From positions 1 through 41,634 of the IMG/VR virus record IMGVR_UViG_3300031673_000158: 41,634 bases of DNA, one strand, 5' to 3'. Shown in pieces: positions 3,143 through 41,405 of this stretch. Each line of letters opens with the position of its first letter. The first letter of the stretch is position 1. The notes under the pieces are model-generated. The model saw only the letters and a list, made by a program, of their open reading frames with translations, did not search any database and had not been told where the DNA came from. Both the position numbers and the translations under genes were made by a program. Source of the DNA: a virus.

Positions 3143-4141
3143 TTAACGATACAGCTCTACCAAAACATTGGCTCTTGTCAATGTCTCGCTTGAACTGGTT
3201 CCAATTCCTGCCGCCCCATTAAATATACTCTGTGGACTGCCTACCTGAGTACCACCGCCACCAATAACAAACGAGTCAACTTTAACCAACGGATTTGAAA
3301 AACCCTTGTAGACTATTACTGTGGCGCCCGCTTGAGCAGCTCGGAATGCTACTGCGGCCATGACCTGATGTTCGCTTTTGTTCAGATCCTTTGCGAAAGC
3401 CTGACCTTCACCAATCTTAGTCATACCCATAACTCGTACTAAACCTGCAGGAAGAACTCGGATGGATCTTTGAGCTTTATACTTCGCAAATGTAGCGATT
3501 TCAATCTGATACGTATTGTCCCATTCTGGCCAAAGGATACCTAAGAATCGACCAGGATTTGCAAAACGTGTGAGTTCTTTATAATTGTACGAGTTTCGCT
3601 GAAGGTCAAAAATACTCTTGCTAATGTGCATTTCATCTTCGGTCAATTTTTCTGGCTCAGCCAAAGGATTGGTAGGATTCAGAAGGTCCGTCGGATTTAT
3701 TTCCGTATAGGACGAATTGTCTGAAATGTTAATCTGATTCTGATTGCCTTCATTTACCTGTCCCTGACCCTGAAGCTGACCTTGCTGTTGACCCTGCTGC
3801 TGACCTTGAATATTAGAATTCTGATTACTGTTGTCATTAACATTCTTGTTCTTGTTCTCATTGATGTTCTTGTTCTTGTTCTCATTGATGTTCTTGTTCT
3901 TGTTCTCATTGATGTTCTTGTTCTTGTTCTCATTGGTGTTCTTGTTCTTGTTCTCATTGGTGTTCTTGTTCTTAATATCGCCTATATTGGCATTGGCAGA
4001 AGCGTTACCACCCTTACCACCTTCTCCGCCCTTATTTGTAATACTGGTGGTTCCGCCAATGTGCAAAGAATCCGCGTAACTCACATTCGTTACTGCCAAT
4101 AAGGCTACTACCAAAAGTACTGCTGTAATTAACTTCTTCAT
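3143..4141 (-). CDS. Exported Asn-rich repeat protein (332 aa)
   Basis: ATG at 4141 follows GAGGAGAAGTAAA. The N-terminus MKKLITAVLLVVALLAVTNV with SYA|DS is a typical Sec signal peptide. A glycine stretch (GGEGGKGGNASANAN) leads to about five 8-residue NENKNKN(I/T/V) repeats encoded by 24-bp DNA repeats, then a QGQQQGQ tract, then a folded-looking C-terminal half of about 180 residues containing HQVMAAVAFRAAQAGATVIV. Export through Sec is unusual for a phage early-region protein; a surface role such as superinfection exclusion is possible but is inference. Family not recognised. Confidence 0.75.
   Translation of the reverse strand: MKKLITAVLLVVALLAVTNVSYADSLHIGGTTSITNKGGEGGKGGNASANANIGDIKNKNTNENKNKNTNENKNKNINENKNKNINENKNKNINENKNKNVNDNSNQNSNIQGQQQGQQQGQLQGQGQVNEGNQNQINISDNSSYTEINPTDLLNPTNPLAEPEKLTEDEMHISKSIFDLQRNSYNYKELTRFANPGRFLGILWPEWDNTYQIEIATFAKYKAQRSIRVLPAGLVRVMGMTKIGEGQAFAKDLNKSEHQVMAAVAFRAAQAGATVIVYKGFSNPLVKVDSFVIGGGGTQVGSPQSIFNGAAGIGTSSSETLTRANVLVELYR
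3841..3974. repeat. 24-bp coding tandem repeat
   Basis: About five tandem copies of a 24-bp unit (minus strand AATGAGAACAAGAACAAGAA plus four bases) inside the exported protein gene encode the NENKNKN repeats. Third-position changes give T, I and V variants. Copy number is likely to vary by slippage. Confidence 0.85.
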
Positions 4142-4173
4142 TTTACTTCTCCTCATTAATTAGTTTCGTTTTT

Positions 4174-4667: not shown

Positions 4668-4792
4668 TCATAATACAAAGAAATATAAATTATTATCATG
4701 TAGCCCGGCATCTCTATAATTTGAAAACATACTTTAAGTACATCTTTTTCTAAACTACCCATACCTTTGATTAAAGTTTCAAACAGAGTCAT
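4640..4792 (-). CDS. Small protein running into a promoter (50 aa)
   Basis: ATG at 4792 follows AAGGATTGATTAA. The product starts MTLFETLIKGMGSLEKDVLK and has a hydrophobic second half. Its last 9 codons lie inside the next phage promoter and the stop TAA is within the TATAAT box, so the tail is either constrained by the promoter or the real gene is shorter. Its start overlaps the stop of the preceding broken gene (ATGA). Confidence 0.4.
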   Translation of the reverse strand: MTLFETLIKGMGSLEKDVLKVCFQIIEMPGYMIIIYISLYYELYFLKSIL

Positions 4793-4921
4793 TTAATCAA
4801 TCCTTCTTTATCCCCTGTTTTAGATTTTGTCATTTCATTATTCTTATATGTTGATACTAATCTGGCCAACTGTTCTTGTTTTTTTGTACCAGTCTTTTAA
4901 CCAACTCATATTCTGTTTCAT
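4789..4921 (-). pseudogene. Frameshifted small protein
   Basis: ATG at 4921 opens MKQNMSWLKDWYKK and then this frame stops at 4844. Removing one A from an A7 run (plus-strand T at 4879-4885) gives the continuation QEQLARLVSTYKNNEMTKSK then TGDKEGLIK, whose TGA overlaps the next ATG (ATGA). The restored protein is 43 residues, hydrophilic and probably helical. Ribosome binding site is weak (GGGATACT). Confidence 0.5.
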
Positions 4922-4937
4922 AGTATCCCGCTTTCTA

Positions 4938-5192
4938 TTATTGTGCATTTTCAAAGTATTCTGATAATTCCCACCAGATTCTGTTGCGGTCAAACACAGT
5001 TAAGTCAATCGTCGATGGAAACAATTTTCTTAACCCGCATGCTTTACAAAAAAGTGCGTTATGCATCTCAGAGACCGTCTTCATGTATACAAATCCTTCA
5101 CATATGACATGTACACCAAGACAATTATAGCTCACATTACCATGGTATCTGATTGATTCACCTGTTTCCCTATCTACAGTGATATTTTTCAT
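4938..5192 (-). CDS. Hypothetical protein with Cys pair (84 aa)
   Basis: Start set at ATG 5192 behind AAGGCGAG. The protein starts MKNITVDRETGESIRYHGNV and contains a C-terminal CKACGLRK followed by FPSTIDLTVF. CxxC plus earlier cysteines (NCLGVHVIC) could form a zinc site. Function unknown. It begins just after the stop of the nucleotidyltransferase fragment (5194), consistent with one operon. Confidence 0.55.
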   Translation of the reverse strand: MKNITVDRETGESIRYHGNVSYNCLGVHVICEGFVYMKTVSEMHNALFCKACGLRKLFPSTIDLTVFDRNRIWWELSEYFENAQ

Positions 5193-5193
5193 G

Positions 5194-5511
5194 TTATCTC
5201 GCCTTATATTTATGGTATAATAGAATTTCTGCCATGTCAATACACAGTTTATTTATCTTCTCTTTGTCCGGCCAAAAAGGTAGTCGAGATAGAGAGTAGG
5301 CCATTTCCGCGGCGGCAAACAACCTTTCTGCTTCAACTTTAACCTGCTCCAAAGACCACTCACCACGCTTGATTTCTAAAAGTTGTCCGGCATCTTTTCT
5401 TTGAACTTGCAGTCTTCCGTTACCCAGAAATTCAATTCCCATCCGTAAAATTCTAATGAGATGAGAGGCGTGTTTATTCATTCGAGCCGCAGTGAATTCT
5501 TTTAAGGACAT
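5194..5511 (-). CDS. C-terminal part of a phage nucleotidyltransferase-like protein (105 aa)
   Basis: The segment MNKHASHLIRILRMGIEFLG, then LEIKRGEWSLEQVKVEAERL and SRLPFWPDKEKINKL, looks like the C-terminal helical domain of the COG3541-type predicted nucleotidyltransferases common in phages. The N-terminal catalytic half with GSxxYG and DxD is absent. ATG at 5511 has a GAGGA site, so the remnant could still be made as a small helical protein, but it should lack transferase activity. No catalytic half was found in the preceding 100 nt. Confidence 0.5.
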   Translation of the reverse strand: MSLKEFTAARMNKHASHLIRILRMGIEFLGNGRLQVQRKDAGQLLEIKRGEWSLEQVKVEAERLFAAAEMAYSLSRLPFWPDKEKINKLCIDMAEILLYHKYKAR

Positions 5512-5610
5512 AAGTTCCTCAATTGAAAGTTTGTTAAATCCACGGATGAGACATCAACAAACATCCATCTTTTCTTATCTATAACGCTCACGGTTTTTAT
5601 TAATTTCCGC

Positions 5611-5718
5611 CTATTTGGTATTTGTTCCTTTTCGATTGTGTCCTGGAAGAAACCGGTTTCCAAAGTTATTCACTCTTTGACCACATTGACCACATTGACA
5701 AAACGGTAATTTATACAT
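5611..5718 (-). CDS. Small Cys-rich, zinc-ribbon-like protein (35 aa)
   Basis: ATG at 5718 follows CAGG. The product has CQCGQCG then RVNNFGNRFLPGHNRKG. CxCGxCG...GNRFLxGHN is the metal-binding block seen at the N-termini of phage HNH/NUMOD-type proteins; here it stands alone. It may be a residual zinc knuckle or a small DNA-binding protein. The 97 nt to the next gene also contain a weak GTG frame that I cannot support. Confidence 0.5.
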   Translation of the reverse strand: MYKLPFCQCGQCGQRVNNFGNRFLPGHNRKGTNTK

Positions 5719-5745
5719 TTAACCTGGGTATTCTAATATGGGATA

Positions 5746-6771
5746 CTAATCAATATTTTTGTGACATACTGGGCACAACTCAGAATGGTGGACTAATTTG
5801 GCTGCCACCTTATCCAGTATTCCTCTACTGTTTGGCTTATCCTCAAAGAGTGAGCTATGCGTGTCAATTGAAGTAAAAATGTTGTATAAATCGAGCAAAT
5901 TTTCTGCTCCCTCATCAATCATAGTATTCCGAACTTCCGTTGCCAGGTCGGTTGGCACGTGCGATTGGTTAAGAACGGAATCCAAAATCTCCGAAGTATT
6001 ACTGTCGATCTTGTGTCCTGCCAATCCTTTAAGATTGATGACTTCCTGATTGAAGAGTTTACGAGATTCGATTATTGTACTCTGCAACCAAGCACTGAGG
6101 TCTTCTTTATCATCCCGGCGTTTCCAGGAACCCAATTGATGCTCAGTTGTGGCTCCATTAGAACAGAATTGGCGGAACACATAAGGAGACACCCTTGTGG
6201 CTGTAACACCCGTAACACTATGCTCAATCCGAATTCCCGCATTGTACAGATCATCTTTTGGTCCTATTGAAACTTGTTCCGGAGTTAAGACACTGAATTT
6301 GAAGGCTGTGGGTTCACCACACACCTTGTGGTAGCCAGCTATTGATTTGCCGAGAACGCCTTCTGTAGCATCCATAATTTCCGATATTTTAATATGTTTG
6401 AAATTGGCCATCGGAATTGCGGATATAGCATTGTCTCCTATAGTCAGAAGTCTGAGTTTGTTTCCGGCCAAGGCTGTCTGATACCAGTACTGCAGGTGAG
6501 GTATAACCAAGCTATCGACTTGGTCCACTGGAATCTTTTTCAAGTATGGCTTCGGAAACCCAATATGGGTTAACAAGTTGCCCAGAGCAGCAGACGTGAG
6601 TGTATTTTTACCTTTACTGTGCCGAATTGTAGTTTTTCCTTCTGCGTCGATGATAAAATTCACCGTCCCATCTAATTGCAAGTCCAGCGCCGTGGATGCT
6701 TCACTTTCGGCAACTATGTTCAGGACTTCTGCCCGAGTCATGACACCTTTTAACTCTGTTAACGTACTCAT
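5746..6771 (-). CDS. DUF932-like protein with C-terminal CxxC (341 aa)
   Basis: Large soluble protein beginning MSTLTELKGVMTRAEVLNIV. A central VSPYVFRQFCSNGATTE resembles the conserved 'R..CSNG/CTNG' block of DUF932 (phage/plasmid TIGR03299-like) proteins, whose biochemical role is unclear. The last residues CPVCHKNID give a CxxCH metal-binding motif not usual in that family. Sole large gene of the unit behind the promoter at 6852-6808; the restored downstream genes may be co-transcribed. Confidence 0.55.
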   Translation of the reverse strand: MSTLTELKGVMTRAEVLNIVAESEASTALDLQLDGTVNFIIDAEGKTTIRHSKGKNTLTSAALGNLLTHIGFPKPYLKKIPVDQVDSLVIPHLQYWYQTALAGNKLRLLTIGDNAISAIPMANFKHIKISEIMDATEGVLGKSIAGYHKVCGEPTAFKFSVLTPEQVSIGPKDDLYNAGIRIEHSVTGVTATRVSPYVFRQFCSNGATTEHQLGSWKRRDDKEDLSAWLQSTIIESRKLFNQEVINLKGLAGHKIDSNTSEILDSVLNQSHVPTDLATEVRNTMIDEGAENLLDLYNIFTSIDTHSSLFEDKPNSRGILDKVAAKLVHHSELCPVCHKNID

Positions 6772-9242: not shown

Positions 9243-10556
9243 CTATCCTTTCACCACGGCCAATGGTTCGAGTTCCACCACAATGTCAACCAGATCCGCC
9301 TGAAGCTCCATCACTCTTTGAATATCCTTATACGCTCCAGGAGCTTCATCAAGGCTATCTTTGCCTCGAACTGAATGTATGATTCCTTTGGCGTCTAATT
9401 TATCTTGTTCATCTTTAAGGGATAAAGTCTCCTTTGCTTTCGTTCGACTCATCAATCTTCCAGCACCATGAGAACAAGAATGGAAACTTTCAGGATTCCC
9501 CTTGCCCCGAACGATATAGCTTTTTGAACCCTGACTGCCGGGAATGATTCCTATTGTTCCCTCTCTTGCTAAAGTTGCTCCCTTTCTGTGTACCATCACA
9601 TTTTCACCAAAATGATTTTCAAGAGTAGCGTAGTTGTGTGCTATATTAATTGCTGAGTTCAATCCTCCTTCAATATTTATGGCTTCTCGGGGTATTCCGG
9701 GCATCCAATCAACCACTTCCACAAAGCACTCAAGTATTCTTTGCATCATCACATTTCGGTTACGCAAAGCAAAAGCAACACAATACTCCATTTCAGCCAA
9801 ATAGGCAATGCCTTCATTAGAATCCAAAGGTAAGAACGCCAGTTCACTTTTTGGCGGAATTGCTGTGAACCATTTTTTATTGAGTTCTTTGGCCACCTCA
9901 TTATAATGATGAGCCACTTTGAAACCTAGATTTCTACTACCTGAATGTAACATAATCCAAATATGTCCATCAGAACCTTTTTGGATCTCCACGAAATGGT
10001 TCCCTCCGCCTAAAGTTCCCAACTGGGTAAGTGCATTGTGGTACTCATTGTATACTACAGAAACAGGAAACACCTCATCCGGTAGTATGTCTAAATTGGG
10101 CATCAGACCTCTATGCTGTGGTTTCTTATGGTGCTTGAATCCAGTAGGCACTGCTTGACGAATTTTTGATAGAATTTTCTTTAACTGCTCTGCTGTAATA
10201 CTGGTCAAGGGAGTTCTGATTGCCATCATCCCACACCCAATATCCACACCCACAGCATTTGGAATGACTACCTTTTTAGTGGCTATAACACCACCAATGG
10301 GCATCCCATAACCACAATGAGCGTCCGGCATTAAACATACCCACTTATATGCAAAGGGAAGGTTGGCCAAATTCTTAGCTTGTTCTAACGTCTTCTCATC
10401 AATTTCATCAAGCCAGGCTTTGATTGGAAGTGCTTCGGTATTGATTACCAGGCATTCCAAATCTTCTTTTGTTTGCTCACGGCTTACCGATTCATCAGAA
10501 AATAATCGCGTAGCAGCATCAACAGCTTCATCAAATAATTGTTCATGGTCAGTCAT
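9243..10556 (-). CDS. rtcB: RNA 3'-phosphate/5'-OH ligase RtcB with captured N-terminus (437 aa)
   Basis: GTP- and Mn-dependent ligase that joins 2',3'-cyclic phosphate or 3'-phosphate RNA ends to 5'-OH ends. Motifs: GVDIGCGM (103-110, metal Cys108), GGGNHFVE (183-190), HSGSRN (204-209), VHRKGAT (322-328), PGSQGSKSY (339-347) and SHGAGR (362-367), whose His is guanylylated. Residues 1-36 (MTDHEQLFDEAVDAATRLFS onward) are not RtcB: they are encoded by DNA repeated at 15420-15543, and true RtcB sequence starts near VINTEALPIKAW. ATG at 10556 has AAAGGAA. A likely role is reversal of tRNA cleavage by host anticodon nucleases. Confidence 0.93.
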   Translation of the reverse strand: MTDHEQLFDEAVDAATRLFSDESVSREQTKEDLECLVINTEALPIKAWLDEIDEKTLEQAKNLANLPFAYKWVCLMPDAHCGYGMPIGGVIATKKVVIPNAVGVDIGCGMMAIRTPLTSITAEQLKKILSKIRQAVPTGFKHHKKPQHRGLMPNLDILPDEVFPVSVVYNEYHNALTQLGTLGGGNHFVEIQKGSDGHIWIMLHSGSRNLGFKVAHHYNEVAKELNKKWFTAIPPKSELAFLPLDSNEGIAYLAEMEYCVAFALRNRNVMMQRILECFVEVVDWMPGIPREAINIEGGLNSAINIAHNYATLENHFGENVMVHRKGATLAREGTIGIIPGSQGSKSYIVRGKGNPESFHSCSHGAGRLMSRTKAKETLSLKDEQDKLDAKGIIHSVRGKDSLDEAPGAYKDIQRVMELQADLVDIVVELEPLAVVKG

Positions 10557-10573
10557 GTTCGTTCCTTTCAAAC
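10450..10573. repeat. 124-bp dispersed direct repeat, copy A
   Basis: Matches 15420-15543 with only 3 mismatches by eye. It carries the ribosome binding site, start codon and first 36 codons of the fused rtcB. The near-identity means the copy is recent or kept alike by recombination. An extension (10558-10595) also matches 15332-15367 with a 1-nt indel. Confidence 0.9.
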
Positions 10574-16105: not shown

Positions 16106-16150
16106 TGATTCCTTATACTTAAATTATAAAATACTTTGGAAGGAATACAA
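16106..16150 (-). promoter_or_regulatory. Phage promoter element, copy 8
   Basis: TTGTAT at 16150-16145, TATAAT at 16128-16123, 16-nt spacer, then TTTAAGTATAAGGAAT. Confidence 0.85.
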
Positions 16151-16921: not shown

Positions 16922-16965
16922 CTGCCCCATAGTTATATTATAATGTATTTTGAAAGAAATACAAA
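16922..16965 (-). promoter_or_regulatory. Phage promoter element, copy 9
   Basis: TTTGTAT at 16965-16959, TATAAT at 16942-16937, 16-nt spacer. The downstream part diverges (ATAACTATGGGG). It is the leftward promoter at the divergence point. Confidence 0.75.
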
Positions 16966-16984
16966 TAAAATAAAAATTTTCTTA

Positions 16985-17139
16985 AACTAAATAAATAAAC
17001 ACAGTTAGAGAGGTACTGTTGGTATAATTATAACATAGGGTTGTAAAGATGGTTGATTAGAAAAAGGAATACCCACGACCACTTTTACTTATAAATGAAT
17101 AATTCTGAACTAGGTTGAAAATGAAAGTATAATAAAGGT
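16985..17139. promoter_or_regulatory. Divergent intergenic control region
   Basis: This AT-rich gap separates leftward and rightward genes. It holds an extended -10 TGGTATAAT (17020-17028) within the near-palindrome GGTATAATTATAAC, and a second TATAAT at 17128-17133 placed so that transcription would begin at or next to the NADAR ATG (17140). No clear -35 is visible for either. It probably contains the rightward early promoter and its operator. Confidence 0.4.
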
Positions 17140-17775
17140 ATGGAAGACATAATACAATTTTGCCATGAATATGAATTTTTGAGTAACTTCTATCCCTCTG
17201 AATTTACTTGGGAGAATAATCAGTGGCCCACAGTTGAACATGCTTTCCAGGCAGCAAAAACTTTGGACCCTCAAGCTCAAAAAGAAATCAGAGAAGTTGT
17301 GATGCCGGGTGATGCAAAAAGACTTGGAAGAACTGTTAAACTCCGGGATGACTGGGAGGAGATAAAGATTTCAATAATGACTGAACTTGTTTTGGAGAAG
17401 TTTGATCAAAATCCTTTATTAATGGATAAGTTATTGGATACTCAAAATGCAAAGCTCATAGAAGGAAACTGTTGGCATGATAACATCTGGGGAGATTGCT
17501 TTTGTAATAAATGTTCCCGGCGAATAGGTCAGAACTGGTTAGGTACCATTTTAATGGAAGTTAGAAACATAACAAGAGAACAGAATTTAAGAGAAGCAGT
17601 ACGGGTGTATATTGAAGCCAAAGTAAAATTGACACTTTGTATGCAGGAACATTTTCGCCAAGTTTGCCATCCATGTAGGGAGTACGCAAGGTGTTTAGTA
17701 TATGCTGGATATGTTGAGACTTGGATGAACTTGCAGAAAGCGTATAAGATAGAGGATGTGGTGGAGAAGGAGTAG
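17140..17775 (+). CDS. NADAR (YbiA-like) domain protein with C-terminal extension (211 aa)
   Basis: NADAR fold: EYEFLSNFYPSEFTW (10-24), WPTVEHAFQAAKT (29-41), GDAKRLGR (57-64), and LLDTQNAKLIEGNCWHDNIW (about 96-115) followed by WLGTILMEVR. Family members hydrolyse N-glycosidic bonds of nucleotide-like substrates, and some remove ADP-ribose from guanine in DNA, acting as antidotes to DarT-type toxins. Residues about 150-211 are an extra helical, Cys-containing domain (CMQEHFRQVCHPCREYARC) of unknown role. It is the first rightward gene and its start nearly coincides with a predicted transcription start. Confidence 0.8.
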   Translation: MEDIIQFCHEYEFLSNFYPSEFTWENNQWPTVEHAFQAAKTLDPQAQKEIREVVMPGDAKRLGRTVKLRDDWEEIKISIMTELVLEKFDQNPLLMDKLLDTQNAKLIEGNCWHDNIWGDCFCNKCSRRIGQNWLGTILMEVRNITREQNLREAVRVYIEAKVKLTLCMQEHFRQVCHPCREYARCLVYAGYVETWMNLQKAYKIEDVVEKE

Positions 17776-17777
17776 TA

Positions 17778-19133
17778 ATGACTAACAACAAAAATGAAAA
17801 CAAGGTAACTTTCTTGGTATTGAGAGATATTTTTCTACAAGATCCCGACCTCAAAAAATTCAAAGGATATACCGCTAGAGTTCTGTGGGCATTGATTGAT
17901 TTTTATGATAAATTAAAAGGCAAACCCGGATGTTGGGCATCCAATCAAACCCTGCGTACCTTTCTTGGTGTATCTGAAGAAACACTTCGTGCAAATCTAA
18001 GAGTACTGGAAAAGTTGGGAAAAATATACAAAGAGGGTGAAGGAAACAACAGAGTATATTATTCCAATTTTGATTTGAATACAGAGAAACCTAAATTAAA
18101 TGGTTTAGATACAGAGGAACTCGGTACAGAGGAACTAGCATCTGGTACAGAGGAACTAGCATCTGGTACAGAGGAACTAGCATCTGGTACAGAGGAACTA
18201 GCATCTGGTACAGATAATCCGGGGTTATATAATAATAAAAGAAAAGAATATAATATAAAAGAAAAAGAAAAAGATATTCTTTCCTCTGATAAGACATCAG
18301 AGGTTACTTCTTCTAAAATAAAAATTCTAGGAGAAGAATCTGAACCATACTTAATAGCCAGCTATTTACGAGCGCTTGTTTTGAAAAAATATCCAAAGTA
18401 TGATTTTACAAGATGTCAAAATAAAATTTACTTAAAGAATAAACTTCAAAAATGTGCTCGATCAATTGATCTTATGATTAGAATTGACAAAAGACCTCCC
18501 GCTGAAATTATTGAAGTTATTGAGTGGGCTCAAAATGATGAGTTCTGGTGTAAAAATATTTTATCCGCTGACAAGTTAAGAATTCAGTATGATAGATTGC
18601 TCATTGCCATGCTTCCAAAAAATGGTTCGAAAGAAAAGCAAATAGTGTTAATTCATGATCCAAGACCAGATATTACAGAAAAAATTGAAGGTCAATATCG
18701 GCGTTTTATGGGAGGTAACTATGTAGCTTCAACTGCAGATCGAAACAATTTTATTGAAACCACTAAAATCATGCTTGAGAAACTCGGGCCCAAGCCCCCG
18801 GCAGATCACGTAGACGCCCTGTTGGATGATATTGTTCTAACTTTACGAGAGGTGTACTCAAATAAAGGCGGTGTGGTTTATCCTAAAATGTTTTGCTCTG
18901 ACCATACCTGGAATAAATTGCTGCCTCAAATTCTTACAAATATGGGATGTCCCATGCAGATGGCGTATGCTTATGATTCACAATCCCTTAAGGAGTTTGA
19001 TGGTGTAGTAGCTGAGGAAGAACAGCTAACAAAAGATATTAAAAGAAATATGGGGAGGCAGAATCCAGAGTCACCTAAATCTGTTGGCGATGATGACTGC
19101 CCGGAACTTGATTATATAAACAATGTTGAATGA
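17778..19133 (+). CDS. Replication initiation protein with N-terminal winged helix and internal iterons (451 aa)
   Basis: Residues 10-105 form a winged helix-turn-helix typical of phage replication proteins (ARVLWALIDFYDKLKGKPGC, WASNQTLRTFLGVSEETLRA, NLRVLEKLGKIYKEGEG). A linker follows with four perfect GTEELAS repeats encoded by 21-bp DNA repeats, then a charged stretch and a helical C-terminal domain (about 190-440) that could load the helicase, as lambda O or DnaD-like proteins do. It sits just right of the divergence point. Starts 2 nt after the NADAR stop, with GGAGAAGGAG. Confidence 0.65.
   Translation: MTNNKNENKVTFLVLRDIFLQDPDLKKFKGYTARVLWALIDFYDKLKGKPGCWASNQTLRTFLGVSEETLRANLRVLEKLGKIYKEGEGNNRVYYSNFDLNTEKPKLNGLDTEELGTEELASGTEELASGTEELASGTEELASGTDNPGLYNNKRKEYNIKEKEKDILSSDKTSEVTSSKIKILGEESEPYLIASYLRALVLKKYPKYDFTRCQNKIYLKNKLQKCARSIDLMIRIDKRPPAEIIEVIEWAQNDEFWCKNILSADKLRIQYDRLLIAMLPKNGSKEKQIVLIHDPRPDITEKIEGQYRRFMGGNYVASTADRNNFIETTKIMLEKLGPKPPADHVDALLDDIVLTLREVYSNKGGVVYPKMFCSDHTWNKLLPQILTNMGCPMQMAYAYDSQSLKEFDGVVAEEEQLTKDIKRNMGRQNPESPKSVGDDDCPELDYINNVE
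18123..18214 (+). repeat. Four 21-bp iterons inside the initiator gene (candidate origin)
   Basis: Units at 18123-18143, 18144-18164, 18165-18185 and 18186-18206 are identical (GGTACAGAGGAACTAGCATC plus T), followed by a partial copy (18207-18214) and preceded by a degenerate one (about 18109-18121). Perfect conservation at silent positions, unlike the 24-bp repeat elsewhere, suggests the DNA itself is selected or recently expanded. Arrangement matches iterons bound by lambda O. Confidence 0.7.
18215..18290 (+). other. A/purine-rich tract beside iterons (candidate unwinding element)
   Basis: Directly after the iterons, 18226-18275 is almost entirely A, T and G with runs such as AATAATAAAAGAAAAGAATA and AAAAGAAAAAGAAAAAGAT. 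In lambda the equivalent strand-asymmetric AT-rich segment next to the iterons is where the origin melts. It encodes only low-complexity residues (NNKRKEYNIKEKEKD). Confidence 0.55.
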
Positions 19134-19141
19134 GGATAATC

Positions 19142-19486
19142 ATGTCTTATGCTGAAGTATTAAAAGATCCACGTTGGCAAAAGAAATGACTTAAAATACT
19201 TGAACGGGATAACTGGGAATGCACTTCCTGTGGTAATGGTACTAAAACACTACATGTGCACCACAGGGTGTATGATGTAGATGGTACTCCTTGGGATATC
19301 CCAGATGAGCTGCCTGTAACTTTGTGTGAAACTTGCCATACAGAGGAGTACGAGCAAGGTAAGATTCAAGCGGCCAGGTTACTAAAACTTTGTAAATCCT
19401 GTCTTTTGTCACATGAGATGCACGAGTTATCTCAGGTGCTCAGTCAATACGGTTTAAGTTCAGATTCTAAAATTTTGGTAACGTGA
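19142..19486 (+). pseudogene. HNH endonuclease-like gene with in-frame TGA
   Basis: ATG at 19142 (TGAGGATAATC) gives MSYAEVLKDPRWQKK, then TGA (19187-19189), then in the same frame LKILERDNWECTSCGNGTKT, LHVHHRVYDVDGTPWDIPDE and LPVTLCETCHTEEYEQGK. CxxC, HVHH and CxxCH form a typical HNH/zinc module. Related proteins have Arg at the TGA position (KKRLKILERD), so AGA to TGA is the simplest change. The UGAC context is leaky, so low-level readthrough is possible. The 115-codon frame is otherwise intact. Confidence 0.65.
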
Positions 19487-23150: not shown

Positions 23151-24026
23151 ATGAAATTTCCATGGTATAAGTATTGTGAATTGCCAGTATCAAAAAGAAA
23201 CACTCTACAGATTTTTATTACCAATCGGTGTAATTTACGTTGTGAGGGTTGTTTTGCAAGAAATGTAATGAAAGACACCCCACCAGATGGTCGTACAGTG
23301 GACATATCAATTGGAGAATATCGGAAAGTCATACAGAGGGGTATTTACAAAGGAGTAAAGCAGATAAATATTTTAGGTGGAGAACCCTTTCTACACACTG
23401 CTTTGCCAGAATTTTGTAGGTATAATGCTGCACTTGGTTTGAAAACAACCATTTATACTAATGGAAGTTATTTGTATTGGGAGCGGAATCTTCATGGGGC
23501 TAAACTCCGAGTTTCTATCTATGGATTGGCTGGGGACAAGGGGATGATAAATTTATCTGAGCAGGCAATTAAATATTCTTTTGATGCCAATTTTATGGTA
23601 GGTGCTGGAACAACTGTGAAAGAGGTAGTTGAAGTTGCAGAAACGGTTGAAAAAGATTTCGGATGTAAGGTGTTTTTCATATCTTCAATAAGGGAGTTGG
23701 ATAAGGGAGATTTCTTTTATGACACGGAACGGACAATGCCTGTTCTGCAATACAAAGAATTGGTTCACAAGTTCCTGTATGAGTATTCGGGACATATGGA
23801 GATTCATATTTCTAAGAGAGGGGTTTTTGAAAGCACGCTGGATTTACCCCATTGTCATTGTAAGTTTGCTAATTATTTTATAGGTGGAAAAATCATACAA
23901 TGTCCCTATGATGTGGTGAATTTGAAATATCAGGATGATTATGAGTTTGGCGTTCGGGATTGTCAGCAGAATTCAACGTGTTTAATGTCAAAGATTGTGG
24001 TTACCCGGAGGTTTGATACCGTATAA
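23151..24026 (+). CDS. Radical SAM protein (291 aa)
   Basis: Iron-sulfur motif C-x3-C-x2-C in TNRCNLRCEGCFARN (about 26-40) and the SAM-binding ILGGEPFLH (about 76-84). The C-terminus has further cysteines (LPHCHCKF, IIQCPYDV, DCQQNSTCLM), compatible with an auxiliary cluster as in SPASM/twitch proteins. Substrate unknown; it is not QueE, which is encoded at 38692. GAGAGAAAGC precedes the ATG. It ends the unit before promoter copy 11. Confidence 0.85.
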   Translation: MKFPWYKYCELPVSKRNTLQIFITNRCNLRCEGCFARNVMKDTPPDGRTVDISIGEYRKVIQRGIYKGVKQINILGGEPFLHTALPEFCRYNAALGLKTTIYTNGSYLYWERNLHGAKLRVSIYGLAGDKGMINLSEQAIKYSFDANFMVGAGTTVKEVVEVAETVEKDFGCKVFFISSIRELDKGDFFYDTERTMPVLQYKELVHKFLYEYSGHMEIHISKRGVFESTLDLPHCHCKFANYFIGGKIIQCPYDVVNLKYQDDYEFGVRDCQQNSTCLMSKIVVTRRFDTV

Positions 24027-26216: not shown

Positions 26217-26593
26217 AGAAGAAAGTTAACTTAACCTCGGAAGAGACTGAAAAACTCAAACCTATATTGGGTAAATTGGGTCTTGAAATTACAGTTATGT
26301 ATGAAACTGCGTGTAATCTATGTGGTAAGAAGTTTCGATCAAAAGATGAGAAACAAGTTAGTAAGAGACTTGAAAAACACGTAGATGAAAAATGTAACGC
26401 TGCAAAATGGTTGAGGGGAACTGCTGAGATTTTGAAACTATTGGGTCTTAAGAAGGTTGTGTATGGTGACTTAGTTTATATTCAAGATGGAAAGTTCCCC
26501 ATAGGGTATAGTCATATGGGACTCGAGGAGTTAGGTATATTAGATAGGGCCCGTGATTTAATTAATTTTAGAGAAGGAACTTCAAATGAGTAG
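26213..26593 (+). CDS. C2HC zinc-finger protein (126 aa)
   Basis: MKKKVNLTSEETEKLKPILG then CNLCGKKFRSKDEKQVSKRL and EKHVDEKC, giving C-x2-C...H-x5-C, a zinc finger likely to bind nucleic acid or protein. It overlaps both neighbours by a few bases, placing it tightly in the operon just before the helicase, so a helicase-loading or accessory role is plausible but unproven. Confidence 0.65.
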   Translation: MKKKVNLTSEETEKLKPILGKLGLEITVMYETACNLCGKKFRSKDEKQVSKRLEKHVDEKCNAAKWLRGTAEILKLLGLKKVVYGDLVYIQDGKFPIGYSHMGLEELGILDRARDLINFREGTSNE

Positions 26594-27992
26594 TCACAAA
26601 GTGATCTCCCAGCACATTCAAGATTGCTTCACATACCTCGCTATCACAGACGTCACTTTTCTTAGGATGGCCAGAACAGCAATCAAGTCCAGTTATTTTA
26701 GTTCCCGGGTGACTGAGGATATCATAAATCTTTGTTATTCTTTTTACGATCTGTGTCAGGAAGCGCCAAAGGACCATTTACACGATGAGCTTGTTAGATT
26801 TACCAATAAGTTTGACGAGGATAAAAAGCAGCTTTACCATAAGTATGTGACACGCATCCAGCAGATGGATCCTCCAAATCAAAAGTATGTCATTTCTAGT
26901 TTTAGTAAATTTGTACAAGCTCGGGAGTTGGAGGAGTATTTGATAGATGCCGCTCCATTGGTTGAGAGGGGGGAGTTTGATTCAGCCAGGGAGTTACTTC
27001 AAAGAGCACTTAGATCTGGAATGGCTCAGGAGGAAGATGGTATAGAGTACCCGGGCAATTGGCCACCATCATACCAGAATAACGTTGGATTTAGAGAAGT
27101 AATATGTCCAACAGGAATTGCAATTATAGATAAAGGAATTGGTGGTATAAAGAGAGCAGGCTTGACTTGTATTTTTGCCGGGTATAAGGTTGGTAAAACT
27201 TGGGGTTGTATTCAACTGGCAAAAGAAGCTCTTATGGCTGGAAAAAAGGTATTGGAAGTTTCTCATGAAGCCTCCGCGGAAGAAGTTGAAATGAGACATG
27301 ATATGACGTTCGGAAGTTTAGTTGATGCCGAAGGTCCAAGAGAGGTGGAGTTTGTTGAGTACGATCACGAAGGAACTAAGATCGCTTCTCATATGGAACT
27401 TAGAGAGAGTGTTTTCAGTAGTGCCGCAGTAAAAGCTGTTCGTGATAAAGTTCGAAGATTTGGTGGAAAAGCTATTATCAAAAAGTATCCTATGGGTACC
27501 TGTTCCGTTGGAGAAATTGAGAGATATCTGGATTACCTTGAAACATTTAAACATTTTATTCCAGATATGCTTATTAGTGATTATGTAGAAAAGATGAGGA
27601 TGCCCAAGGCTGGAGAAGGTAGGGATTCAATAAATGAGACATATATCAATTTAAAGAGAATAGGGGATGAGCGGGATATTGCCGTTGTTACCGCCAGTCA
27701 GATAAAGACAAAGTACTTGGAGAGCAGTGATATCAGTGAAGCGGGTGCACCTGCCGAGGATGCCAGAAAATTGGGCAACATTGATTTAGGTTTGTTTTTT
27801 GGTATGAGCAGGATACAGGCGACAAGGAATCTTATGCAGGCATATGTTCTTGTTAACAGATCGGGGCCACAAAAGTTCGGGTGTGTAGTAAGCAGAAACT
27901 TGATGGTGGGACAACTTGCCCTGTCATGTTGGCCAATTAAATTTACTGAGGAGAATAGTAATGGGTCGGGCGGTAAAAAGAGTAATGGATAG
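26586..27992 (+). CDS. DnaB-family replicative helicase-like ATPase (468 aa)
   Basis: N-terminal 150 residues are helical, as in DnaB/gp41-type helicases. The RecA-like core has Walker A AGYKVGKTW (198-206), a catalytic Glu region KKVLEVSHEASAEEVEMR, a Walker B-like MLISDYVEKMR and a sensor VVTASQIKTK. The C-terminal GPQKFGCVVSRNLMVGQ fits the end of the RecA fold. It should unwind DNA 5'-3' as a hexamer together with the primase at 37714. ATG overlaps the stop of the zinc-finger gene. Confidence 0.8.
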   Translation: MSSHKVISQHIQDCFTYLAITDVTFLRMARTAIKSSYFSSRVTEDIINLCYSFYDLCQEAPKDHLHDELVRFTNKFDEDKKQLYHKYVTRIQQMDPPNQKYVISSFSKFVQARELEEYLIDAAPLVERGEFDSARELLQRALRSGMAQEEDGIEYPGNWPPSYQNNVGFREVICPTGIAIIDKGIGGIKRAGLTCIFAGYKVGKTWGCIQLAKEALMAGKKVLEVSHEASAEEVEMRHDMTFGSLVDAEGPREVEFVEYDHEGTKIASHMELRESVFSSAAVKAVRDKVRRFGGKAIIKKYPMGTCSVGEIERYLDYLETFKHFIPDMLISDYVEKMRMPKAGEGRDSINETYINLKRIGDERDIAVVTASQIKTKYLESSDISEAGAPAEDARKLGNIDLGLFFGMSRIQATRNLMQAYVLVNRSGPQKFGCVVSRNLMVGQLALSCWPIKFTEENSNGSGGKKSNG

Positions 27993-32231: not shown

Positions 32232-32795
32232 ATGAAGTTTGATAAAAATAAAATGGTTATAGGTATTACAGCATTTTTAGAAGGTTTAGGTCTTGATCTT
32301 AAAGATCAGCACCTTATTCGCACACCAACTCGAGTAGTGGAAGCCTGGGTAGAAACTTTTGCTTCAGGATATCTGTATACTGATGCAGATATTGAGAAGA
32401 TGCTGTCAGTTGAATTTAAGGATAGTTATGATGAGATGATAGTGGTAAAGGATATTCCTTTTACTTCTCATTGTTCACATCATCTTGTTCCTTTTATAGG
32501 CACAGCTAAGATAGGTTATGTACCAAATGGCAGAATTGTGGGATTGTCAAAACTTGCTCGAGTTTTGGATGTTTTTGCTCACAGACTCCAAGTTCAGGAA
32601 CAACTGGCGGAGCAGGTTGCTGAGTCGATCAATAAATATTTGGCCCCTAAAGGGGTGGGAGTGGTGTTGCAGGCAAGTCACATGTGTATGACAAGTAGAG
32701 GAGTTAAGAAGCCTGGCAGTCAGATGGTTACAAGTTGTTTGCTTGGTGAGATGCGGACTGATAGATCAATGAGAGAAGAATTTTTGAATTTTTAA
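32232..32795 (+). CDS. folE: GTP cyclohydrolase I (187 aa)
   Basis: Converts GTP to 7,8-dihydroneopterin triphosphate, the entry to folate and 7-deazaguanine synthesis. Zinc ligands are in FTSHCSHHLVPF (Cys81, His84) and SHMCMTSRG (second Cys). Conserved GLSKLARVLDVFAHRLQVQE and RTPTRVVEAW are present and the length is that of the bacterial type I enzyme. With the QueE gene at 38692 it most likely feeds queuosine-like or DNA base modification. Confidence 0.92.
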   Translation: MKFDKNKMVIGITAFLEGLGLDLKDQHLIRTPTRVVEAWVETFASGYLYTDADIEKMLSVEFKDSYDEMIVVKDIPFTSHCSHHLVPFIGTAKIGYVPNGRIVGLSKLARVLDVFAHRLQVQEQLAEQVAESINKYLAPKGVGVVLQASHMCMTSRGVKKPGSQMVTSCLLGEMRTDRSMREEFLNF

Positions 32796-36535: not shown

Positions 36536-37717
36536 ATGAAACTGGAAAAGAGTGAAACAAACAACGCCATAATTACAGAGTTGTGTAGTGTTCGAAAGCA
36601 CCCCAACGCGGATAGATTGAACCTTGCTACAGTTTTAGGTGCTCAAGTTATTGTGGGTCTTGATGCAAAAGATGGTGATTTAGTGATTTACTTCGATTCT
36701 AATTTGAAGTTGTCCCCCGAGTATCTCCATTGTAATAATTTGTATTCGAGTAAAGAATTAAATGCTGATCCAACAAAGAGTGGTTATTTTGGAAAGAACG
36801 GTCGGGTTAGAGCTCAAAAGTTCCGGGGTGAGATAAGTAACGGTTACGTGGCCGAACTTGGATCTTTGAATATGATACCAGGAGTTGTGGTAAACGGAAT
36901 TGGTATGTACTGGAGTTCAGGCACTGAGTTTACTTCCATTAATGGGGTGGAGATTTGTAGTAAGTTTGTTGTGCCCACTAAACATACACAGGGGCAACCA
37001 AGACCGGTTATATCTGAGATGTTTCACAAGCATTGGGATACCAAACAATTGATGAGAGAGTTGGGTTCTATCCCCGAAGATGCTATTTGTTACATTGAGG
37101 AAAAAATTCATGGAACTCACGGCAGAACTGGAAATGTTTTGTGCAAGATTAGTAGACCTTGGTGGAAGTTTTGGGGACCTGTGGAGGAATGGAAAGTTAT
37201 AAGCGGAACCCGCAGAGTAGACAATATCAGTTACCATATACCAGCCGTGCGGTTGGAAATAGAGAGAAGGATAGCTCCCCATTTACACAAGGGAGAGGAA
37301 GTTTATTATGAGATTTATGGTTACGTTGGTGGAAAACAAATTCAAACAGGTTTTCCCTATGATTGTCGCGGAGGTGAGTTTAAGGTAGTTTTGTATAGGG
37401 TAACTATCACTTCATTAGATGGGGTTTGCTATGACCTTAGTAGAAAACAAGTATACAGGAGAGCAGAGGAATTGGGGTTGGAGAAGCCGTATCTAATAGA
37501 AATCTGTGATCAGGGAGATTACCTAGTTGATTATGTTCAAGGGATTTGTAAAGGTAAATCTCATTTAGATTCGAGTACTTTGTGTGAAGGAGTAGTTGTT
37601 TGGTTTGAGGACAGTTATGGAAATTGGGGATGTTTGAAGCATAAGTCTGAAGAATTTTTGTTGTCTCAGGACAAACGTTACGAAAAGGGTGAGGGCGATG
37701 TTGAGGACGAACTTTGA
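36536..37717 (+). CDS. RNA ligase, Rnl5/DRB0094 type (393 aa)
   Basis: N-terminal OB-like domain (KHPNADRLNLATVLGAQVIV, residues 21-40) resembles the tRNA-binding-like domain found in Deinococcus Rnl5. Nucleotidyltransferase motifs: I YIEEKIHGTHGR (Lys190), Ia ISGTRR, III VYYEIYGYV, IV LCEGVVVWF, V CLKHKS. It should adenylylate 5'-phosphate ends and seal RNA in duplexes or hybrids, repairing breaks with 3'-OH/5'-P ends. That complements RtcB. ATG at 36536 after GGAGAAAAATA. Confidence 0.82.
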   Translation: MKLEKSETNNAIITELCSVRKHPNADRLNLATVLGAQVIVGLDAKDGDLVIYFDSNLKLSPEYLHCNNLYSSKELNADPTKSGYFGKNGRVRAQKFRGEISNGYVAELGSLNMIPGVVVNGIGMYWSSGTEFTSINGVEICSKFVVPTKHTQGQPRPVISEMFHKHWDTKQLMRELGSIPEDAICYIEEKIHGTHGRTGNVLCKISRPWWKFWGPVEEWKVISGTRRVDNISYHIPAVRLEIERRIAPHLHKGEEVYYEIYGYVGGKQIQTGFPYDCRGGEFKVVLYRVTITSLDGVCYDLSRKQVYRRAEELGLEKPYLIEICDQGDYLVDYVQGICKGKSHLDSSTLCEGVVVWFEDSYGNWGCLKHKSEEFLLSQDKRYEKGEGDVEDEL

Positions 37718-38682
37718 TTGAGCGACAAAAAATAATTGACATTTACACCAACTGTGATATTGAACATTGGACTGAAGGAAAGAATGTTACAACTAATTGG
37801 GTGAATGTCACCTGTCCATTCTGTGATGATCACTCTAACCATTGTGGCGTGAATCCTGCGACTTCAATTTTCTCTTGTTGGTTGTGCGGAGCAAAGGGCG
37901 GCTTTATTGATTTGTTGATGAAGCTCACTGGACAGTCTTTCACTGTGTGCAAGGAAATGGTTGAGGACTCGGCAGTCTCTTTTAAGGTACGTCCACTCGA
38001 TAGGATTACAAATATTTTCCAGGGAGAAATTGCGGTTGAGTCTGATGAAGTTGAGAAGGAAGTTCATTGTGTGTTACCAGAAAGATTTGAACTCATCACC
38101 GAGGATACTTGGTCTCCTCTTCTTGATACTTATCAAAAGAGAAGGAATATTTTAAGGAGTACCATAATTGATAGTGGTTGTGGAATCTGCCGTTCTGGAA
38201 GGTATATGAATCGTATGGTTATTCCAGTTGTGTGCGGAGGTAAATTAGTAGCTTATCAAGCAGCCGACATGTCAGGTACTTCCAATTTAAAATATCAAAG
38301 TTCTCCATTATCAATGGGCAATATAAATGATTACCTTTATGGCTATGACGCTATAGATAGGAGAATGATAGTTGTTGAGGGAATTCTTGATAAGTGGCGA
38401 GTGGGAATTGAGGCAGTGGCGGCATTTACTTCGTCCATTTCTCAGAAACAAATAAAGTTAATTTTGGCTAAAGGCTTGGATGAACTATACTTTTGTTTTG
38501 ATCCCGAATTGCGGGCTATTAATAAAGCCAGAAAGGTAGCTAAGGAGTTTGAAGCGTATATTCCAAAAGTTGGGGTACTTCGGTTGCCTACTAAGATTCA
38601 GACTTCTACTTATCACAATGAAGATCCTAATGATGTCGGTCGAGAAAAAATCTATCAATTAATAGAAGAACTAGATTTGTAG
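37714..38682 (+). CDS. DnaG-type primase (322 aa)
   Basis: CHC2-type zinc finger: CPFCDDHSNHCGVNPATSIF then SCWLCGAKGGFIDLL (residues 34-68). Toprim-like block: NDYLYGYDAI, MIVVEGILDKWR and ELYFCFDPELRAINKA. It synthesises RNA primers with the DnaB-like helicase. Start is TTG at 37714, overlapping the ligase stop (TTGA), with GAGG upstream; translation is probably coupled. The protein ends without a DnaB-interaction domain. Confidence 0.85.
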   Translation: MIERQKIIDIYTNCDIEHWTEGKNVTTNWVNVTCPFCDDHSNHCGVNPATSIFSCWLCGAKGGFIDLLMKLTGQSFTVCKEMVEDSAVSFKVRPLDRITNIFQGEIAVESDEVEKEVHCVLPERFELITEDTWSPLLDTYQKRRNILRSTIIDSGCGICRSGRYMNRMVIPVVCGGKLVAYQAADMSGTSNLKYQSSPLSMGNINDYLYGYDAIDRRMIVVEGILDKWRVGIEAVAAFTSSISQKQIKLILAKGLDELYFCFDPELRAINKARKVAKEFEAYIPKVGVLRLPTKIQTSTYHNEDPNDVGREKIYQLIEELDL

Positions 38683-38691
38683 GAGAACAGA

Positions 38692-39408
38692 ATGATTAAA
38701 CTTAATGTACAATCAATCTTCGATTCGGTAGACGGAGAAGAGAATGGGTTCAATGGTGCAGGTCAATTGACTACTTTCATTCGTTTGAAAAAATGTAATC
38801 TTAAATGTAGGTGGTGTGATACGCAATACGCACAAGAGGCAGAGCCTGAAAACTGGATGACTATAGATGAAGTTATTCAACGGATTCATTTTCCAAAGGT
38901 AACAATAACCGGTGGTGAGCCCTTGCTTCAGAAAGAAGCAGTGGAGGAACTCTGTAAGATACTATACTTGTACGAACATATAATATCCATAGAAACGAAT
39001 GGAACTATTCAACCAACCTATTTTGTAGACGGAGTTAGGTACATAGTTGACTTTAAACTTATGTCATCAGGTGTGATGAATAAGATGAATTCATTAGCGT
39101 TTTTAGTTCTTCGACCTTATGATGTAATAAAGTTTGTGATTTCTGATGAGGAAGATTACAAGTATGCAAAGATGTTGATTATTGAGCATCCAAATTGGGA
39201 AGCAAGGAAAGTTTTCAGTCCGGCGATGGCAATCAGGGAAATTCCTAAAGTGGGGGCAAGTTGTTTAGATGCTTGGCCCGTAGAAAATGTTGTGGATACC
39301 TTATGGCCCAGGCAACTTGCAGAGATGATGATTCGAGATCAGGTAGACGCACAGTATAGCTTGCAGATACACAAAGTTCTCTGGCCCGGAATTAAGGAGG
39401 AAAGGTAG
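38692..39408 (+). CDS. queE: 7-carboxy-7-deazaguanine synthase (QueE) (238 aa)
   Basis: Radical SAM enzyme converting carboxytetrahydropterin to CDG in 7-deazaguanine synthesis. N-terminus LNVQSIFDSVDGEENGFNGA is the usual QueE substrate loop. Motif KKCNLKCRWCDT has C-x3-C-x2-C (Cys35, 39, 42), followed by VTITGGEPLLQ and SIETNGTIQP. The C-terminal SLQIHKVLWPG matches QueE 'LQxHKxxWG'. QueC and QueD are not in this window. Confidence 0.88.
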   Translation: MIKLNVQSIFDSVDGEENGFNGAGQLTTFIRLKKCNLKCRWCDTQYAQEAEPENWMTIDEVIQRIHFPKVTITGGEPLLQKEAVEELCKILYLYEHIISIETNGTIQPTYFVDGVRYIVDFKLMSSGVMNKMNSLAFLVLRPYDVIKFVISDEEDYKYAKMLIIEHPNWEARKVFSPAMAIREIPKVGASCLDAWPVENVVDTLWPRQLAEMMIRDQVDAQYSLQIHKVLWPGIKEER

Positions 39409-40355: not shown

Positions 40356-41405
40356 ATGGAAACCAACATGGGATATACTAAGATGAAAGTTAGGCACGAA
40401 AAATATTGGGATAACTTTGAAGAACGTATTAATCAAACGGTAGATGCTATGATTAAAGGTAGCAATCCTCTTTTAGGACGTATTGCTCTTCATATCACTT
40501 CTCGTTGTAATTTTAAATGTGATTACTGTAATGAACATTTGAATAATTCTGTATTGCCCATGAGTTTATTTCTTAAGATTGTAAATGAATACTCACAAAT
40601 GGGCGGAGGAATTCTACATATTACTGGTGGGGAACCAACTGCTGTAAAGTGGTTGGATGAAGCTATTCAAAATACATCAGAAAATGTAACAATAAATTTG
40701 AATACTAATTGTTATCGGCTTCTTAAAAGAAAAACTTACGAATTCATAGATAGAATAAAGGTATCCTTGGATACGAGTAACAGGGAGTACTTTGATAATC
40801 TTGTGCACTGTTCAGGAGCTTTTGATAGAATAGTGGCCAATCTTTGGAAATTGTCTGAGTATAATAAAACTAAGGATGTCAGTATTACTTTCACCCTAAC
40901 TCGAGAAAACTTTCGAGAAGTTCCAGAATTTTTATCCTGGTATTATAGAAAGCTATCCCGGGTGTACGCTATTTTCTTTTCCATTTATAAGGGAACGGAT
41001 GAAAGATTTCTTTTTAGAGAGGATGACCAAATAGCTTTTTGGGACGATGTGGTGCCAAAAATGAAACAAGTATTTAAAGAGAATGATGATAAGGAAAGTT
41101 TGTGGTTATTTGAACATTCTTACAATCAGAATACTTTGTCAACTTCATGTAGATATCCTGAAAATATAGAGGTTCCCTGTCATATTTCCAAGAGTGAACT
41201 AACTATAAATGAAGAAGGAAATGTTTGGAGGTGCTCTCATCTGTTTCGAGATAAAGTTCCATGCAGCTCCTATAACATAAAAAATGAGTCTTTGGAATAT
41301 ATACATAATAACTTGATACAGATAAAATATTCTCAGTGCCTGATTGGATGTAATTTAAAGTTAATACACTTTAATCAAGAAGTTCAGGAAGGACTGGGGT
41401 ACTAA
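40356..41405 (+). CDS. Radical SAM protein with C-terminal Cys-rich domain (349 aa)
   Basis: ATG at 40356 after AGGGGATGAA. Cluster motif HITSRCNFKCDYCNEH (C-x3-C-x2-C, about 51-58), SAM motif LHITGGEPTAV, then a TIM-barrel body. The C-terminal CRYPENIEVPCHISK, VWRCSHLF, VPCSSYN and SQCLIGCNLK form a SPASM-like auxiliary cluster domain. Such enzymes modify peptides or small molecules. It is alone between two phage promoters, so it is a separately controlled unit. Substrate unknown. Confidence 0.85.
   Translation: METNMGYTKMKVRHEKYWDNFEERINQTVDAMIKGSNPLLGRIALHITSRCNFKCDYCNEHLNNSVLPMSLFLKIVNEYSQMGGGILHITGGEPTAVKWLDEAIQNTSENVTINLNTNCYRLLKRKTYEFIDRIKVSLDTSNREYFDNLVHCSGAFDRIVANLWKLSEYNKTKDVSITFTLTRENFREVPEFLSWYYRKLSRVYAIFFSIYKGTDERFLFREDDQIAFWDDVVPKMKQVFKENDDKESLWLFEHSYNQNTLSTSCRYPENIEVPCHISKSELTINEEGNVWRCSHLFRDKVPCSSYNIKNESLEYIHNNLIQIKYSQCLIGCNLKLIHFNQEVQEGLGY

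Follow-up and report, generated by a model that had tools for sequence, protein, structure and literature searches.

A likely replication origin within the O-like initiator gene of a phage from IMG/VR

The initiator gene and its surroundings

The window analysed here is the whole 41,634-nt stretch of IMG/VR virus record IMGVR_UViG_3300031673_000158. Near its middle, an O-like replication initiator gene carries a set of direct repeats followed by an A/purine-rich tract. The genes and features considered below are:

17140–17775, + strand: NADAR-domain gene, directly upstream of the initiator gene and co-oriented with it (PF08719, E 2.7e-32)
17778–19133, + strand: O-like replication initiator gene, 451 aa (phrog_391, phrog_2514)
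17868–18065, + strand: predicted winged-helix DNA-binding domain, residues 31–96 (AlphaFold2 topology)
18080–18091, + strand: degenerate iteron core TACAGAGAAACC, 10/12
18110–18121, + strand: perfect 12-base iteron core TACAGAGGAACT, set 15 nt rather than 21 ahead of the next core
18123–18143, + strand: iteron 1, GGTACAGAGGAACTAGCATCT
18144–18164, + strand: iteron 2, identical to iteron 1
18165–18185, + strand: iteron 3, identical to iteron 1
18186–18206, + strand: iteron 4, identical to iteron 1
18207–18214, + strand: partial iteron GGTACAGA, 8 bases of a fifth copy
18221–18277, + strand: A/purine-rich tract, presumed unwinding region (84% AT, 79% purine, 63% A)
18336–18647, + strand: middle domain of the initiator, residues 187–290, with matches to other O-like and DnaD-like phage proteins
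18648–19130, + strand: C-terminal helical domain, residues 291–451, conserved in the three phages compared (44–54% identity)
26586–27992, + strand: phage-encoded DnaB-like replicative helicase, presumed partner of the initiator (phrog_19, E 1.3e-33)
37714–38682, + strand: phage DNA primase (phrog_47, E 1.9e-40)

The initiator product matches phrog_391, 'replication initiation O-like' (E 1.1e-26), and phrog_2514 (E 4e-23), and the PHROG families that match it comprise annotated O-like initiators and DnaD-like loaders. An HTH_36 match at residues 31–81 (E 7e-5) falls below the Pfam gathering score, and a PDB sequence search returned nothing relevant. Our AlphaFold2 model, built from 3 sequences with a mean pLDDT of 48, was used for the order of helices and strands only. 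Helices at residues 31–46, 56–63 and 67–79 are followed by strands at 83–86 and 93–96 (pLDDT about 45–66), an H-H-H-E-E order that in this low-confidence model is that of a winged helix. Residues 97–189, which are coded by the repeat array and the AT tract, are unstructured in the model. The placing of the repeats in the linker of a winged-helix initiator, made in a preliminary description of this DNA, is thus consistent with both the family matches and the predicted domain order. The C-terminal domain is modelled at pLDDT 70–83 across much of residues 300–380 and matched no named family. The top PDB fold matches of the whole model were 4pql, 5kbj and 4pt7 (Foldseek; weak, E 0.04–0.13), initiator and Rep-DNA entries that we take to be RepA initiators of staphylococcal plasmids such as pSK41. 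They offer a hint of a winged-helix initiator; the pSK41-type RepA proteins are plasmid proteins, and at these E values we claim no membership among them.

The two transcription arms diverge between 16,887 and 17,140, 1.0–1.2 kb from the array and in agreement with the distance of about 1 kb given earlier. The cumulative GC-skew minimum, which had been put forward as a check on the origin, lies at 17,002, about 1.1 kb upstream of the array. Although close to the array, this minimum is not diagnostic of an origin because it falls where the coding strand switches. Third-position skew on the coding strand is positive in each arm, and we therefore rejected GC skew as independent evidence. The DnaB-like helicase gene starts 7.5 kb downstream of the initiator gene, and no P or DnaC loader family was found among the right-arm ORFs scanned (some of the small ones included). 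The record lacks end repeats, and the ORFs scanned yielded no structural genes, so that it may be a fragment and the phage could have a second origin.

Several other features of the window were noted. The NADAR-domain protein possibly counters guanine ADP-ribosylating defences, and an HNH-like reading frame (19142–19486) is broken by an in-frame TGA near 19187. A putative secreted protein (3143–4156, − strand) contains six NENKNKN-type 24-nt repeats at 3829–3973. An RtcB-type tRNA-splicing ligase (9243–10571, − strand) and an RNA ligase (36536–37717, + strand) make up an RNA-repair set within one phage, and genes for a GTP cyclohydrolase, a QueE-like protein and other radical-SAM proteins (32232–32795, 38692–39408, 23151–24026 and 40356–41405) are perhaps a 7-deazaguanine DNA-modification set. 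A recurring intergenic element, which reads roughly TTTGTATTCCTCCAAAAGTATATTATAATTTAAATATAAGG (TTGTAT, about 17 nt, TATAAT) on the strand used by the surrounding arm, is present at 16136, 24058 and 35109. It recurs in the two related contigs described below, L007 (1131, 3289, 4147, 6242 and 10208) and L021 (5700, 9598 and 19610), and looks like a phage-specific promoter family common to all three phages.

Repeats and a weak duplex between the initiator domains

Four perfect tandem copies of the 21-mer GGTACAGAGGAACTAGCATCT occupy 18123–18206 on the + strand inside the initiator ORF, between the predicted winged helix and the C-terminal domain, a copy number that depends on the metagenome assembly and may be somewhat off. 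Three partial copies flank them, one more than the two of the preliminary description, which had otherwise given the array as we find it. The 21-mer is unique to the array in the whole 41.6-kb record, and the 12-base core, allowing up to 2 mismatches, occurs outside the array twice in the window, about the number expected by chance (expectation calculated by hand). The observed repeat score of the initiator gene was reached by 0 of 300 codon shuffles and likewise by 0 of 300 synonymous-codon shuffles. No DnaA boxes lie near the array. Dyad symmetry of the repeats was considered and rejected, since the best pairing, at most 6/8 pairs and in one partial copy, is unconvincing next to the 8/9 pairs of lambda.

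The A/purine-rich, strand-asymmetric tract begins 7 nt past the array, directly after the repeats, as the earlier reading of the sequence had it. When duplex weakness was ranked by nearest-neighbour energy over 40-mers, the weakest 40-mer of the tract (18225–18264) was the third weakest duplex in the window, with 0.04% of window positions as weak or weaker. The tract also contains a 25-nt direct repeat (80%) at 18227 and 18253.

As a positive control, the same script was applied to lambda gene O (NC_001416), where it recovered the four annotated iterons, with spacings of 20, 24 and 23, and a weakest 40-mer that begins 4 nt past the last of them. O-like genes from ten other phages gave a mixed picture. 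Four of them (Lactobacillus phage LBR48, Vibrio phage K73, SfIV and Klebsiella phage 5 LV-2017) have repeats beyond chance immediately 5′ of their weakest stretch. No convincing array emerged from the other six (PBL1c, 031MP002, Dorito, Austintatious, LmoP7 and SpaA1), and not every member of the family therefore has in-gene iterons. For Klebsiella phage 5, as for the related contig L021, the automatic array end takes in one stray copy, and the main copies stop just before the weak stretch.

The array of the window, taken alone, could be a protein repeat, because all its copies lie in a single reading frame at multiples of 3 nt; each 21-mer encodes a GTEELAS heptad. Replication slippage could have expanded such heptads in a flexible linker with no role at the DNA level, the AT tract being then simply a lysine/asparagine-rich part of that linker. 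Linkers of this composition are AT-rich and common in AT-rich genomes, which counts against reading the tract as part of an origin, and the other in-gene tandem repeat of the window, the NENKNKN repeat at 3829–3973, shows no sign of being one. Slippage accounts less well for the flanking core at 18110, which is intact at 12/12 positions despite its different spacing. The copies are also identical at synonymous sites beyond what shuffles produce, although recent duplication would account for that as well. With the window copies confined to one frame, it takes the relatives to distinguish a function of the DNA from a repeat in the protein.

Conserved layout and changing repeats in two relatives

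Queries of IMG/VR with the ligase and the helicase yielded two related contigs. L007 (13.2 kb) has a ligase 76% and a helicase 85% identical to those of the window; in L021 (24.2 kb) the values are 73% and 87%. In both, the initiator gene is flanked by the NADAR gene (or what remains of it) on one side and the genes for DNA ligase and DnaB on the other. The NADAR gene is intact in L007 and a remnant with a premature stop in L021, which has an additional gene between the remnant and the initiator. Four further candidates proved to be the same contigs again (L006 and L019 are L007; L022 and L023 are L021), L005 was set aside as a distant O-like protein only, and L020, found by its DPRPDIT(E) pattern, is a DnaB-type helicase gene rather than an initiator. 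A DNA-level search of GenBank phages gave no match to the window, tblastn of the L007 initiator against phages gave none either, and two queries found no relatives in bacterial genome contigs.

Both relatives keep the initiator and carry repeats in the same linker, with sequences unrelated to those of the window and to each other; the window's repeat is absent from the L007 initiator gene, and that of L007 from the window's. The preliminary description had held that relatives retaining the gene without repeats would speak against an origin, and neither contig is of that kind. In L007 (initiator gene 4774–6219), CCCAGATAAAAAG-type repeats lie at 5177, 5199, 5222 and 5243. Their spacings of 22, 23 and 21 occupy two reading frames, and they are therefore conserved as DNA and not as protein. 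L021 has GTTCAGAAAAACATGAAC twice and CTTAATAAAAATCTTAA[G/C] twice, two pairs only, which are marginal at 4–16 of 300 synonymous shuffles. An AT tract follows the repeats on their 3′ side in each relative, at 5283–5322 in L007 and 8657–8696 in L021, where it is the weakest 40-mer of the 13.2-kb and the 20.3-kb locus, respectively. The layout is thus conserved, whereas the protein sequence of the linker is only 17–26% identical among the phages. Given these relatives, slippage of a linker without a DNA role is a highly improbable account of the repeats.

L007 and L021 are most alike in the middle domain (73% identity), followed by the C-terminus (48%), the DNA-binding domain (36%) and the linker (26%). 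In a sample of three phages, these values are suggestive and would fit joint replacement of the DNA-binding domain and its sites.

Three further observations concern the relatives themselves. The L007 array is bracketed by a perfect 14-nt inverted repeat, GAAGTAGGGGGTTC (5149–5162) and GAACCCCCTACTTC (5260–5273), and the L007 AT tract holds a near-threefold perfect 12-nt repeat, TAATGATAAGAT, at 5301–5335, which recalls the AT-rich repeats of unwinding elements. In L021, a reading frame at 17613–18827 resembles a TnpB/OrfB-type transposon protein, as judged by eye.

A probable origin in the initiator gene and its nearest known counterparts

Taken together, 18080–18277 is very probably a replication origin of the phage, lying within the coding sequence of its own initiator. 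The preliminary description proves right in what it observed and, to the extent that computation can tell, in how it read the site. Supporting this reading are the repeats, the weak duplex, the homology of the gene, the order of its domains and a layout kept with changing repeats in two relatives. From these we infer that the initiator binds, the tract opens and replication starts at this site. The winged-helix N-terminus of the initiator would bind the TACAGAGGAACT-containing 21-bp repeats and, with 21 bp equal to two helical turns, initiators would sit side by side on the same face of the helix. The resulting nucleoprotein complex would strain and open the A/purine-rich tract that adjoins the array on its 3′ side, after which the middle and C-terminal domains may recruit the DnaB-like helicase and the primase that the phage itself encodes. 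The rightward operon is transcribed across the site, which may aid opening, as in lambda.

Alternatively, the initiator could bind the repeats for copy-number control or autoregulation, and the main origin could be at another site, such as the divergent intergenic region at 16.9–17.1 kb or a place outside the fragment. The GC-skew minimum (17,002) falls in that region, as does a weak duplex at 16929–17008; the record, an IMG/VR contig, lacks end repeats; and phage SPP1 has two origins, of which one alone, oriL, lies inside the initiator gene (gene 38) (PMC6316719). We nevertheless consider a main origin elsewhere highly improbable: the divergent region lacks an iteron array, having a single 2-mismatch core at 17006, which is about chance; its skew minimum is accounted for by the coding-strand switch; and an unwinding-like tract adjoins the in-gene repeats in 3 of 3 phages.

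The proposed in-gene origin shares with those of lambda, P22 and SPP1 about 20-bp repeats between the domains of the initiator, an adjacent AT tract and, as its host gene, an O-like initiator. In the lambda paradigm, the initiator binds repeats within its own gene and the neighbouring tract opens (PMC5043065). In lambda ori as in the window, four repeats of roughly 20 bp lie midway along the initiator gene, a purine-rich AT tract, in lambda the weakest duplex of gene O, follows directly on their 3′ side, and transcription crosses the site. The lambda iterons, however, are inverted repeats bound by O dimers, whereas the 21-mer has no clear dyad; and lambda uses P with host DnaB, whereas the window phage encodes a DnaB-like helicase of its own, and the right-arm ORFs scanned include no P family. 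Neither of the marks of lambda ori proper, dyad iterons and a P-type loader for host DnaB, was found in the window, which may be a partial record. The lambda-like layout of the preliminary description consequently holds for the anatomy, which the gene O control reproduces, but not for the dyad or the loader, in which the window resembles P22 and phage L more.

The Salmonella phages P22 and L (gene 18 with gene 12) carry in-gene repeats, four of about 20 bp in P22 and six of 11 bp in L; both have a phage-encoded DnaB-type helicase as partner, and the repeats vary from one related phage to another within an unchanged layout (PMC8022706). The window system is best read as nearest to these two rather than to lambda, because it has its own DnaB-like helicase, no P-type loader that we could find and no clear dyad in its repeats. 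Like P22 and L, it pairs a distant O-like initiator and phage-specific in-gene repeats with a phage DnaB-type helicase. It differs in the remote sequence of its initiator, in the added C-terminal domain of ~160 aa, in having a NADAR gene rather than lambdoid regulators upstream, and in its separate helicase and primase genes several kb away. The helicase gene starts 7.5 kb downstream of the initiator gene, not beside it as in lambdoid early operons, and the system thus 'works like' P22 and L without being classed as lambdoid. SPP1 oriL is alike in having direct repeats and an AT-rich unwinding element inside the initiator gene, together with a phage DnaB-type helicase; the second origin of SPP1, oriR, and its loader gp39 have no counterpart found in the window.

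More tentatively, the DNA-binding domain and the in-gene iterons may be exchanged as one cassette, with the remainder of the initiator retained, and, as part of the same proposal, the extra C-terminal domain of ~160 aa may be a built-in recruiter of the DnaB-like helicase that makes a separate loader unnecessary; we regard this combination as possible rather than probable.

An origin in the initiator gene, with repeats that diverge along with the DNA-binding domain, is a known principle from lambda, P22, phage L and SPP1, and the lineage is new. Our analysis places a likely origin in a phage lineage with no DNA-level relative among the GenBank phages searched. The three natural initiator/iteron pairs at one locus are material for the protein–DNA specificity code of O-like initiators.
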